Notes under the pieces: generated by a model
Seen by the model: only the letters and a program-made list of their open reading frames with translations
What the model was told of the DNA's origin: nothing
Database searches by the model: none
Source: Candidatus Peribacteria bacterium
GTDB taxonomy: Bacteria > Patescibacteriota > Gracilibacteria > Peribacterales > Peribacteraceae
Length of the DNA stretch: 64,000 bases
NCBI GenBank assembly: GCA_023245865.1
Contig: JAHFJN010000001.1
Coordinates: 725,637 to 789,636, forward strand
Direction: 5' to 3'
Part shown: positions 46,384-56,126 of the stretch, piece after piece
Layout: each line of letters starts with the position of its first letter
Numbering within the stretch: the first letter of the stretch is position 1
Program-made: the position numbers and the translations under genes

Positions 46384-48072
46384 ATGTTAAAAAACTGCGT
46401 TCAATGTTCGACATCTTTCGACTTCGGGGACGCCGAGAGAGCGTTTATGAAAAAAGTGCAATTCATTTTTGGAGAAACGACCGTTCATCTGGCGGAACCA
46501 ACACAATGCCCTCGCTGTCGAATGTTGATTCGTGTCAGTAACCGCAATGAGAATAATTTGTATCGAAATACTTCAGCCCAATCGGGGGAAAGCATCATTT
46601 CCATCTATGCCCCGGAACCTCTTTGGGGCAGCCCCTACAAAGTCTACACGCAGGAGCAATGGAATGCGGACACTTTCGATGCCACCACGTTCGGGTGCGA
46701 TGTGGATCTGGACAAGCCTTTTTTCGAGCAATTTTCGAGCCTGAGCAAGGTGGTCCCCCATATGGCTGTCGTCACGGTCTCCAATGAAAATTGTGATTAC
46801 ACGACCGGCACGGGCTACTGCAAAAACTGCTATCTTATTAATTCGTCCGAGCACTGCATCGATTGCTACTACGGGAAGCTCTACCAGAACTGCAACGACG
46901 TCACAGACTCCGCCTACATGTATGACAGCGAGCTCTGCTATGAGTGCTTCAGTATGCACGGCTGCACCCGATGCAGCTTTGTCTCTTTTAGCAAAAATAG
47001 TCACGATTGCATGTTTTCGGCAGATCTTCAGGGTTGTAAAAACTGTTTCCTTTGCGCCAATCTCTCGCAAAAGGAATATCATTTCAAAAACCAACCACTG
47101 TCAAAAGACGCATATGAGACAATGGTGAACGACGTACTCGGTTCGCATGCCACATTTGAATCGATGAAGCAGGAATACAGAGCACTCCTCGAAAGAAAGA
47201 TTTGGAAAGCCGCCAATATCATCCAATCTGAAGATTGTTCGGGAGACTACATCGAAAATTCGCGTCACTGCCATCACTGCTATGACATGACGGACAGTCA
47301 GGACTGCGGGTACGTGCAGGTCGGCGTGAACGCAAAGGATTGCTGGCATTGTTCGAACATATATCTGAAGCCGGAGCTCTGTTATGAGACACTCGGCACC
47401 ATCGAGGCCTACAACTGCGCCTACTGCCTTTACGTTTTCCATTCGCAAAATATGCTGTATTGCGAACACTGTTACAGCTGCCTTGATTGCTTCGGGTGCA
47501 GCGGACTTCGTCGCAAGCAATACTGCATTTTTAATAAGCAGTATGCAAAGGAAGAATATGTGAAGATCGTGCCGATGATCATTGAGAAGATGAAACTGCG
47601 TAAAGAATGGGGGCAATTCTTCCCTCCGAAGTTCTCCAGCTTCGGCTACAACGAATCGGTTGCCCAGGAGTACGCACCGATGACGAAGGAGGACGCAACG
47701 GCACTCGGATTTCTTTGGAGAGAGCAGCGCGACGAACCGCCAAACGTTTCACGCATCATCAGGGCCGAGGATTTGCCCGATCGGCTTGCGGATATCCCCG
47801 ACGAAGTCATCGATTGGGCGATTGCGTGTGAGGAGTCAGGCAGACCATTTCGCATCCTCAAGAAAGAATTGGAATTCTATCGAAGTCAGGGCATCCCTCT
47901 GCCACATCTACATCCCCCAGTTCGCTATAAGAAACGCATGAACATGCGAAACCCACGCACGCTGTATGAACGAACTTGCGCAAAATGCAATAATCCAATC
48001 ACAACTACATTCGCACCTAACCGACCTGAAATCGTCTATTGTGAAAAGTGTTATTTGAAAGAGGTGTACTAG
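46384..48072 (+). CDS. Very Cys-rich solenoid-like protein with terminal zinc ribbons, unknown function
   Basis: 562 residues with about 39 Cys by my count. The N-terminus (CVQC...CPRC) and C-terminus (CAKC...CEKC) each look like a zinc ribbon. Between them, two blocks (about residues 130-240 and 285-390) repeat CxxCY-type units every 10 to 20 residues (YCKNCY, HCIDCYY, LCYECF, GCTRCS, GCKNCFLC, HCHHCY, DCWHC, NCAYC, YCEHCYSCLDC), interrupted by a helical stretch. A third, Cys-poor region (about 400-520) has helical segments. The pattern suggests a metal-stabilised repeat solenoid. I recall similar proteins in CPR genomes but know no function. Its own -10 and the TrpR-like gene follow it. Confidence 0.7.
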   Translation: MLKNCVQCSTSFDFGDAERAFMKKVQFIFGETTVHLAEPTQCPRCRMLIRVSNRNENNLYRNTSAQSGESIISIYAPEPLWGSPYKVYTQEQWNADTFDATTFGCDVDLDKPFFEQFSSLSKVVPHMAVVTVSNENCDYTTGTGYCKNCYLINSSEHCIDCYYGKLYQNCNDVTDSAYMYDSELCYECFSMHGCTRCSFVSFSKNSHDCMFSADLQGCKNCFLCANLSQKEYHFKNQPLSKDAYETMVNDVLGSHATFESMKQEYRALLERKIWKAANIIQSEDCSGDYIENSRHCHHCYDMTDSQDCGYVQVGVNAKDCWHCSNIYLKPELCYETLGTIEAYNCAYCLYVFHSQNMLYCEHCYSCLDCFGCSGLRRKQYCIFNKQYAKEEYVKIVPMIIEKMKLRKEWGQFFPPKFSSFGYNESVAQEYAPMTKEDATALGFLWREQRDEPPNVSRIIRAEDLPDRLADIPDEVIDWAIACEESGRPFRILKKELEFYRSQGIPLPHLHPPVRYKKRMNMRNPRTLYERTCAKCNNPITTTFAPNRPEIVYCEKCYLKEVY

Positions 48073-48134
48073 ATCCACACTGCGCCCTTTCGGTGCTGAG
48101 CTTTTTTGTGCTGAAAAAATGGCGCTATTATGCA

Positions 48135-48162
48135 TTGCACTTCTACTTCCGTATTCTAGAAT
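48135..48162 (+). promoter_or_regulatory. Promoter of the TrpR-like gene, -10 inside the palindrome
   Basis: TTGCAC (48135-48140) and TAGAAT (48157-48162) are 16 bp apart. The -10 lies at the centre of the 28-bp palindrome and ends 8 nt before ATG 48171. Confidence 0.55.
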
Positions 48163-48171
48163 ACGGAAGTA
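48144..48171. promoter_or_regulatory. Perfect 28-bp palindrome ending at the TrpR-like start codon: probable operator
   Basis: Half site TACTTCCGTATTCT (48144-48157) is followed by its exact reverse complement with no spacer, and the last base is the A of ATG 48171. It covers the -10. Such symmetry at this position is what an autorepressor dimer would bind. Confidence 0.75.
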
Positions 48172-48611
48172 TGGCAGCAGGAAAGGTGAACCATCGCTTC
48201 CTCGGCAAGGACAAATTCGCAGATCTGGAGCGGGAGTTTGTCACCATCCTCAAACGTTCAGGGCGTGGAGACCATCTCACTCTAGTTATCCGCAATCTGC
48301 TCACCAAGAGCGAACGGATCATGGTGGGTCGACGCATACGAATTGCCAAGCGACTCATTGCGGGCAAAACCTATGAGACGATCCGCGCGGAATTGAACGT
48401 GGGGCTCGCGACGATCGCACGGGTAGATGCCTGGCTCTTTGCATCAATTCCCCACTACAAAGCACTCCTCCCGAAGCAAGATGAAACAGACCGAGAAGAT
48501 CACAGGGAATATGTCCCGCCAGAACCGTATTCCTTCGAAGCTCTTCGAAAGAAATATCCCGATAAGTTTCTCATTTTCAATCTCTTGCTCGATGGAGATA
48601 AGAAGAAATGA
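48171..48611 (+). CDS. TrpR-superfamily (YerC-like) DNA-binding protein
   Basis: 146 residues. Residues 40-90 (NLLTKSERIMVGRR, RIAKRLIAGKTYETIRAEL, GLATIARVDAWL) match the helix-turn-helix of TrpR/YerC-like regulators. The C-terminal 50 residues are charged and unassigned. The start at ATG 48171 is fixed by homology and by the promoter; the open frame upstream to 48048 lacks family character. It is flanked by near-identical palindromes (48144-48171 and 48618-48649), one over its own promoter, so self-repression is likely. The ligand is unknown. Confidence 0.82.
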   Translation: MAAGKVNHRFLGKDKFADLEREFVTILKRSGRGDHLTLVIRNLLTKSERIMVGRRIRIAKRLIAGKTYETIRAELNVGLATIARVDAWLFASIPHYKALLPKQDETDREDHREYVPPEPYSFEALRKKYPDKFLIFNLLLDGDKKK

Positions 48612-48617
48612 TTGCTT

Positions 48618-48649
48618 AATACTTCCGTATACTAGAATACGGAAGTATT
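48618..48649. promoter_or_regulatory. Second copy of the palindrome, 32 bp with one mismatched pair
   Basis: Half site AATACTTCCGTATACT (48618-48633) pairs with 48634-48649 except at one position. It shares the core of the 48144 palindrome and lies 6 nt after the TrpR-like stop, before the convergent GT2. It may be a second operator, a hairpin terminator, or both. Confidence 0.7.
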
Positions 48650-48664
48650 TGCCCGGAAAAATGA

Positions 48665-49450
48665 TCATGGCCGAATCCTCCACGTCAGCACCCACAGATA
48701 CCTTACTTGCTCCCAGAGGTTGCCAAACGGCAAACGCGGGCCGCGGCGCGGAATCAGGAACGTGAGCAGCCACGCCACGGTCATGCGCGTGATCGAGAAG
48801 AGATTGCGAAGCAGCACCCATTTGAACCAGCGCGTGAACCCGATCCCCGCGCGTGAGCGCGCTTCGATAATCAGGTAACGATCGTACTTCGCACGCAGGC
48901 TTTTGGCGGGTGCGAGCGGTACGGTCACGGGTACATCAAGAAAACCGATGTGCGCGTCCGGGATAATATCGAGACGCTCGTGGACGGGCTTGATGCATCC
49001 ACGCACGCTCGAGAGATGGAAGAGCCGCACATGATCCGAAACGCTGCGAGAAAACATCACCACTTCCCTGCCATCGAGCGAGAGCTTGCGTTTAACGAAA
49101 TACACGCCGGGTTTGCCTTGATCGATGATCGCACGGACGGAATCCAGAAGCGCCGGCGACGCCTCTTCATCGGCATCGACGCAGAGAATCCACGGATCCC
49201 GCGCGAGTGTGTAGCCTTCATTTCGCAGGCTCGAGAAGTCGATGATGTAACCGTGCGCATCGAGGTACGCGGGGTTCTGCGGGAACACACGCACGTTTGG
49301 CTGCTGCATCGCATACGAAACTGTTCCATCGGTGCTGCCGCCATCGAGCACGATGATGTCCTCGACCTCACGCATCGACGCAAAATAACGCGGCAGATTC
49401 TGCATGCTGTTTTTCGTGAGGAGCACGGTGCTGACAGAGAGAGTGTTCAT
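48665..49450 (-). CDS. GT2 glycosyltransferase (WaaE/KdtX-like)
   Basis: 261 residues with STVLLTKNSMQNLPRY, IIVLDGGSTDGT near 31-42, and CVDADEEASPALL as the DxD-type metal site, followed by KRKLSLDGREVV and HVRLFHLSSVRGCIKPVHE, a pattern of lipopolysaccharide-core-type GT2 enzymes. An amphipathic or weakly hydrophobic C-terminus (MTVAWLLTFLIP) may bind the membrane. Its ATG overlaps the upstream GT4 stop (49447-49450), so it is the last gene of the leftward run from 52687. Confidence 0.83.
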   Translation of the reverse strand: MNTLSVSTVLLTKNSMQNLPRYFASMREVEDIIVLDGGSTDGTVSYAMQQPNVRVFPQNPAYLDAHGYIIDFSSLRNEGYTLARDPWILCVDADEEASPALLDSVRAIIDQGKPGVYFVKRKLSLDGREVVMFSRSVSDHVRLFHLSSVRGCIKPVHERLDIIPDAHIGFLDVPVTVPLAPAKSLRAKYDRYLIIEARSRAGIGFTRWFKWVLLRNLFSITRMTVAWLLTFLIPRRGPRLPFGNLWEQVRYLWVLTWRIRP

Positions 49451-56068: not shown

Positions 56069-56085
56069 CCCGTGTTTTTATACCC

Positions 56086-56107
56086 ATATATTCATTAATG
56101 AATATAT
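56086..56107. other. Perfect 22-bp AT-rich palindrome between convergent genes
   Basis: ATATATTCATT pairs exactly with AATGAATATAT with no spacer. It is the only strong signal in the 58-bp gap between rmlA and a leftward GT4. GC is almost absent, so a stable terminator hairpin is not obvious; a protein-binding site is an alternative. Confidence 0.6.
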
Positions 56108-56126
56108 TGCTATAGAACAATATTGA

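Follow-up and report, generated by a model that had tools for sequence, protein, structure and literature searches.

Why does a gene for a TrpR-like protein stand between two nearly identical long palindromes, the second of which lies before the end of a convergent gene? The question is posed by a locus in the window, that is, the whole 64,000-nucleotide stretch of Candidatus Peribacteria DNA analysed here.

The window locus and its protein

Both palindromes are where the preliminary description placed them. The upstream one (48144–48171, no strand assigned, TACTTCCGTATTCTAGAATACGGAAGTA), a putative operator, is perfect, 28 bp long with 14-bp arms. It reaches the ATG of the TrpR-like gene (48171–48611, plus strand, 146 aa, stop codon 48609–48611), the A of the start codon being its final base. 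The downstream palindrome (48618–48649, no strand assigned, 32 bp, 16-bp arms with one mismatched pair) begins seven bases past the stop codon and ends 16 bases before the stop of the convergent downstream neighbour, a family-2 glycosyltransferase gene (48665–49450, minus strand). The upstream neighbour encodes a Cys-rich zinc-finger-like protein (46384–48072, plus strand). Both neighbours are outside the unit.

Aligned as direct repeats, the two palindromes are identical at 28 of 29 positions, and their centres differ by one base. The arm pattern matches twice in the window, at these palindromes and nowhere else, compared with zero expected (100 shuffled versions of the window gave none); thus a chance origin is excluded. 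We propose that the downstream palindrome, a near-copy of the upstream one, is the right edge of the unit.

The upstream palindrome was said to cover the −10. A promoter scan found no sigma-70-like promoter there, and the best hexamer, TATTAT (48126–48131, plus strand), identified by eye only and also missed by the scan, is situated 12 bp upstream of the palindrome. If this hexamer is the −10, the palindrome would form most of the 5′ leader. The downstream palindrome has no T-tract, and its suggested role as a terminator for the glycosyltransferase gene is unsupported; the latter, being convergent, cannot take it as its promoter either.

The encoded protein matches the Trp_repressor family (PF01371, 45.8 bits against the gathering score of 27, E 6e-12). 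The core occupies residues 22–103, and Trp repressors of known structure align with residues 22–97. However, the score is below the equivalog cut-off for TrpR (TIGR01321, 36.2 vs 67.25 bits) and the curated cut-off for YerC/YecD, that is, HisR (TIGR02531, 23.2 vs 42.2 bits). The structure model is of low confidence (pLDDT 61), and its best matches are all Trp repressors, none of them below E 0.01. The C-terminal extension YSFxxLRxKYPxxFLxFNLLL is common to several relatives. Trp_repressor is the sole domain found in the bracketed gene, with no HUH/Y1 nuclease, and the interval between the palindromes holds this gene only, with no recognisable transposase or recombinase. The statement that little is known of YerC-like proteins no longer holds: according to PMC9413887, YerC is HisR, an autoregulated histidine repressor of the TrpR family with lineage-specific 20-bp palindromes.

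There are six PF01371 genes in the genome. One of them (L004) scores above the YerC/YecD cut-off and another (L005) near but under the TrpR cut-off, and neither has palindromes. The window gene and loci L007, L008 and L009 are alike (38–48% identical to the window protein) and each carry a long palindrome with a sequence of its own. L007 has it on both sides, L008 upstream only, and L009 downstream, with a degenerate version upstream. The L009 palindrome contains ACTAGTAAACTAGT, which resembles the core of the E. coli trp operator, ACTAGTTAACTAGT.

Elsewhere in the window, a further AT-rich 26-bp palindrome, CCATATATTCATTAATGAATATATTG, with one mismatch, is found at 56084–56109, where a sugar-nucleotide transferase gene and a glycosyltransferase gene converge on an intergenic region. 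Possibly it is a solo palindrome that belongs to a different family of this type.

Recurrence across the Patescibacteria

A search covering 59 relatives yielded 11 with matches in a patchy distribution; when 380 Patescibacteria genomes were searched with a profile, 66 had matches, some with 4–6 copies. Palindromes were measured at 68 family loci from these 380 genomes and at 15 canonical TrpR/YerC-type controls. The upstream palindrome is present in 51 of the 68 relatives, in none of the 15 controls and in four of 271 background windows, the downstream one in 38 of 68 relatives and 0 of 15 controls, and the two repeat each other in 47 of 68 at the strict threshold, as do 7 of 400 cross-locus pairs, or in 54 of 68 by a lenient score; since the family loci are related by descent, these counts are not independent and the p-values overstate independence. 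The loss of palindromes from orthologs, named in the preliminary description as evidence against autoregulation, did not occur, and about a quarter of the relatives have no upstream palindrome at the threshold used. The palindromes of relatives are about 26–44 bp long and commonly flank the gene on both sides. An independent later scan added seven loci, every one with a direct pair. No relatives of the window protein were found by a scan of GTDB contigs, from which its own record may be left out, and a query with the Doudnabacteria subfamily found none among IMG/VR contigs. No description of a palindrome-bracketed TrpR-like arrangement was found in the open-access literature searched, a scope outside which most subscription journals fall.

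The palindromes differ from gene to gene, and the two copies at one gene agree. Read outward from the centre, the family half-site is GTAT-N3-AGTA, with two GTA boxes 8 bp apart. The centre is almost free between loci (about 0.2 bit of information at the two central positions), and the central bases differ between the two copies of one locus in only 5–7% of cases. In relatives, the palindrome is retained at the gene start while its sequence changes. The orthologs between PGK and enolase (L038, L042, L043) and those between KBL and YvcK (L047, L048, L062) each occupy the same place with different palindromes, changed at both ends. There is no more than a hint of co-variation between the recognition helix and the half-site (partial r 0.13, p 0.065, with overall similarity allowed for). 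By eye, HTI in the recognition helix accompanies TTGCA arms at five related Doudnabacteria loci. The kept position, the changing sequence and the lack of RNA-strand bias (see below) strongly favour autoregulation via the palindrome, as had been suggested from the window alone, at the level of sequence comparison; the position over the −10 is not supported. Promoter-like −10 sequences beside the family palindromes show no clear excess over shuffles.

Family-wide, the matched pairs are direct in 42 cases and inverted in 9, with three ties. The window pair scored as a tie because its palindromes are almost perfectly symmetric. Among the cases of clear orientation, direct pairs outnumber inverted ones 30:3 if the next gene downstream is co-oriented and 7:0 if it is convergent or opposed; thus the direction of the pair is not simply that of the next gene's promoter, and an account of the direct orientation by operators only fails at the convergent loci. 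DNA looping between the copies, also proposed in the preliminary description, was rejected, as their helical phasing gives no signal at 10–10.75 bp. L064 has the same palindrome as L060, L061 and L069, but in each of its two copies the asymmetric centre points the other way with respect to the gene, as would be seen after an inversion of the gene between its palindromes.

Like TrpR (TIGR01321/PF01371), the window protein has the TrpR core and fold and a palindromic site at its own gene; unlike TrpR, it has the C-terminal extension, and the long palindromes, commonly on both sides, vary in sequence between paralogs. It resembles HisR (YerC/YecD, TIGR02531) in belonging to the TrpR family and in the lineage-specific palindromes, the autoregulation of HisR being common. 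Unlike those of the window unit, the HisR sites are 20 bp long and lie at his genes, and bracketing is not mentioned in the accessible part of the source (PMC9413887).

Solo copies and edges of the unit

The genome-wide check for the half-site proposed in the preliminary description yielded exactly one additional copy of the window palindrome (L003) in the genome (1.1 Mb, 99.7% complete). It is situated in the convergent uvrB/purA intergenic region, with uvrB ending 22 bases before it and purA ending on its other side, away from promoters. The palindrome of L007 also has one exact solo copy (L098) in a convergent intergenic region, and no solo copies of the L008 or L009 palindromes were found in the genome at up to three mismatches. 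Since neither solo copy is at a promoter, a regulon is not supported in the source genome. A paralog of the Cys-rich zinc-finger-like gene (46384–48072) stands beside L098, possibly by chance.

Each palindrome has 1–3 copies in the source genome and at most nine elsewhere. The Doudnabacteria palindrome ACATTCATACA(GTCG)TGTATGAATGT has eight copies in each of the genomes G179 and G292, several of them directly upstream of ddl, thyA, tRNA-Arg and three related lipoprotein genes (names by inspection). In G292 (contig C17; L107, L110) three related lipoprotein genes follow in a row with the same palindrome before each, and two of them have a near-identical 23-bp stretch ahead of the palindrome. 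ACTGCAATAC-N6-GTATTGCAGT occurs nine times in G284, with exact arms in seven cases and two mismatches in the other two; the centre varies among the copies, which is what binding sites should show. In two genera (G284 and, with two mismatches, G108) the palindrome stands upstream of an AbrB-like gene, which is a small signal of a candidate conserved target. At L178 and L101, a single intergenic region contains, next to each other, the palindromes of two distinct TrpR-like paralogs from one genome.

The edges of the unit are clear in one pair, L011 and L012, from two genera. These two relatives of the window unit share 82% identity across 598 bp, the alignment running from the upstream palindrome to the last base of the downstream one, and the flanks are unrelated. 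Hence, as with an insertion sequence or transposon, a bounded unit is seen at unrelated sites. As for empty sites for L011 and L012 within the family, none could be assigned, the neighbours being too divergent to decide. Just outside the unit, L011 1201–1450 appears to contain the end of a nucleoside-transporter gene, possibly one broken at the insertion site.

The KBL–YvcK junction is occupied in G338, G292 and G268 and empty in G402 and G258. Thus occupancy varies within one genus, and gain and loss would look the same in these sequences. In a conserved Doudnabacteria cluster (by inspection, sugar-phosphate transferase, glycosyltransferases, MurG, patatin and MurC), the unit is at one junction in L163 and L170 and at another in L164, L166, L175 and L177. 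On the other hand, several units have unchanged neighbours across genera, hence the movement is not frequent.

Interpretation

We consider it probable that these genes belong to one family: each would encode a TrpR-like autoregulator, be flanked on either side by a copy of its own operator, and be relocated or exchanged as a palindrome–gene–palindrome unit. The comparison of loci itself shows the layout and its recurrence, the agreement of the two copies, the edges in one clear pair and the variable occupancy of junctions; from it we infer binding, autorepression and a role for the downstream copy, and also a mode of movement. The TrpR-like protein, probably a dimer, would bind its own palindrome, and further dimers might be stacked alongside on the same palindrome; tandem binding of the Trp repressor is on record in the title of PDB entry 1trr. 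Protein bound to the upstream copy would block expression of its own gene. In some genomes, the extra copies at other genes may place a small gene set under its control. The downstream copy may serve as the operator of a co-oriented next gene; if the neighbour is convergent, as in the window, it would most simply be the other edge of the relocated or exchanged unit.

An ordinary autoregulated repressor, with the upstream palindrome as its own operator, the downstream one as the operator or promoter of the next gene, and no mobile unit, is a rather unlikely reading, in spite of several facts that suit it. The neighbours are mostly co-oriented (34 (+,+) vs 2 (−,−)). At L060 and L061 the downstream copy immediately precedes a co-oriented gene for a surface protein, and in G292 further genes of that protein family have the same palindrome upstream. 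HisR is autoregulated in many genomes (PMC9413887). However, the window locus and about ten others keep the pair even with a convergent or opposed gene downstream and, in the clear cases, in direct orientation. Moreover, the L011/L012 homology edges coincide with both palindromes. The layout also invites comparison with the REP/RAYT systems of REP-associated tyrosine transposases: a gene is bracketed, solo palindromes are dispersed (up to 6–7 per genome here) and mostly intergenic, each gene has its own palindrome type, and palindromes of two families may stand side by side, as at L178 and L101. By this analogy, the palindromes would be dispersed repeats of the REP kind, and the TrpR-like gene would be their partner. 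Yet the REPs around a RAYT gene are inverted and usually number more than 100 copies (PMC2817692), whereas here the copies are direct and few and Trp_repressor takes the place of a HUH/Y1 nuclease, so that a REP-like origin seems improbable.

That a host site-specific recombinase acts on the palindromes as on lox or dif, the TrpR-like protein being cargo or an accessory factor, would agree with direct repeats having arms of about 11 bp and centres of 4–6 bp, mostly identical at both ends, as well as with the solo sites and the filled and empty junctions. However, the palindrome sequence changes by gene lineage, as expected if the site is read by the TrpR-like protein rather than by one host recombinase, the window centres differ by one base, and no circle or excised form was seen; we regard this reading as quite improbable. 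Least credible are RNA hairpins forming the leader and terminator of the TrpR-like mRNA. Both window palindrome regions have favourable RNA folds (z −3.0 and −5.5), and the repeats are in the sense orientation, but the arm mismatches lack RNA-strand bias, those able to form G-U pairs in the transcript being no more frequent than the others (14 G-T vs 14 A-C), a T-tract is missing at the downstream palindrome, and no credible Rfam family was found. A nuclease-free minimal mobile element, in which the TrpR-like protein would mark and pair the palindromes and host enzymes would cut and join, is an unlikely variant; if true, the ends with which a DNA-binding regulator spreads are its own operators.

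The preferred reading, that of autoregulators relocated or exchanged together with their operators, raises the question of how a unit changes its location without a recombinase of its own. If it is right, the Patescibacteria hold dozens of natural regulator–operator pairs, with the recognition site present twice beside each gene, so that it would become directly testable by what code TrpR-family proteins recognise DNA and how repressor and operator change jointly. It would also offer a way into the study of regulation in a phylum for which this subject is poorly known.
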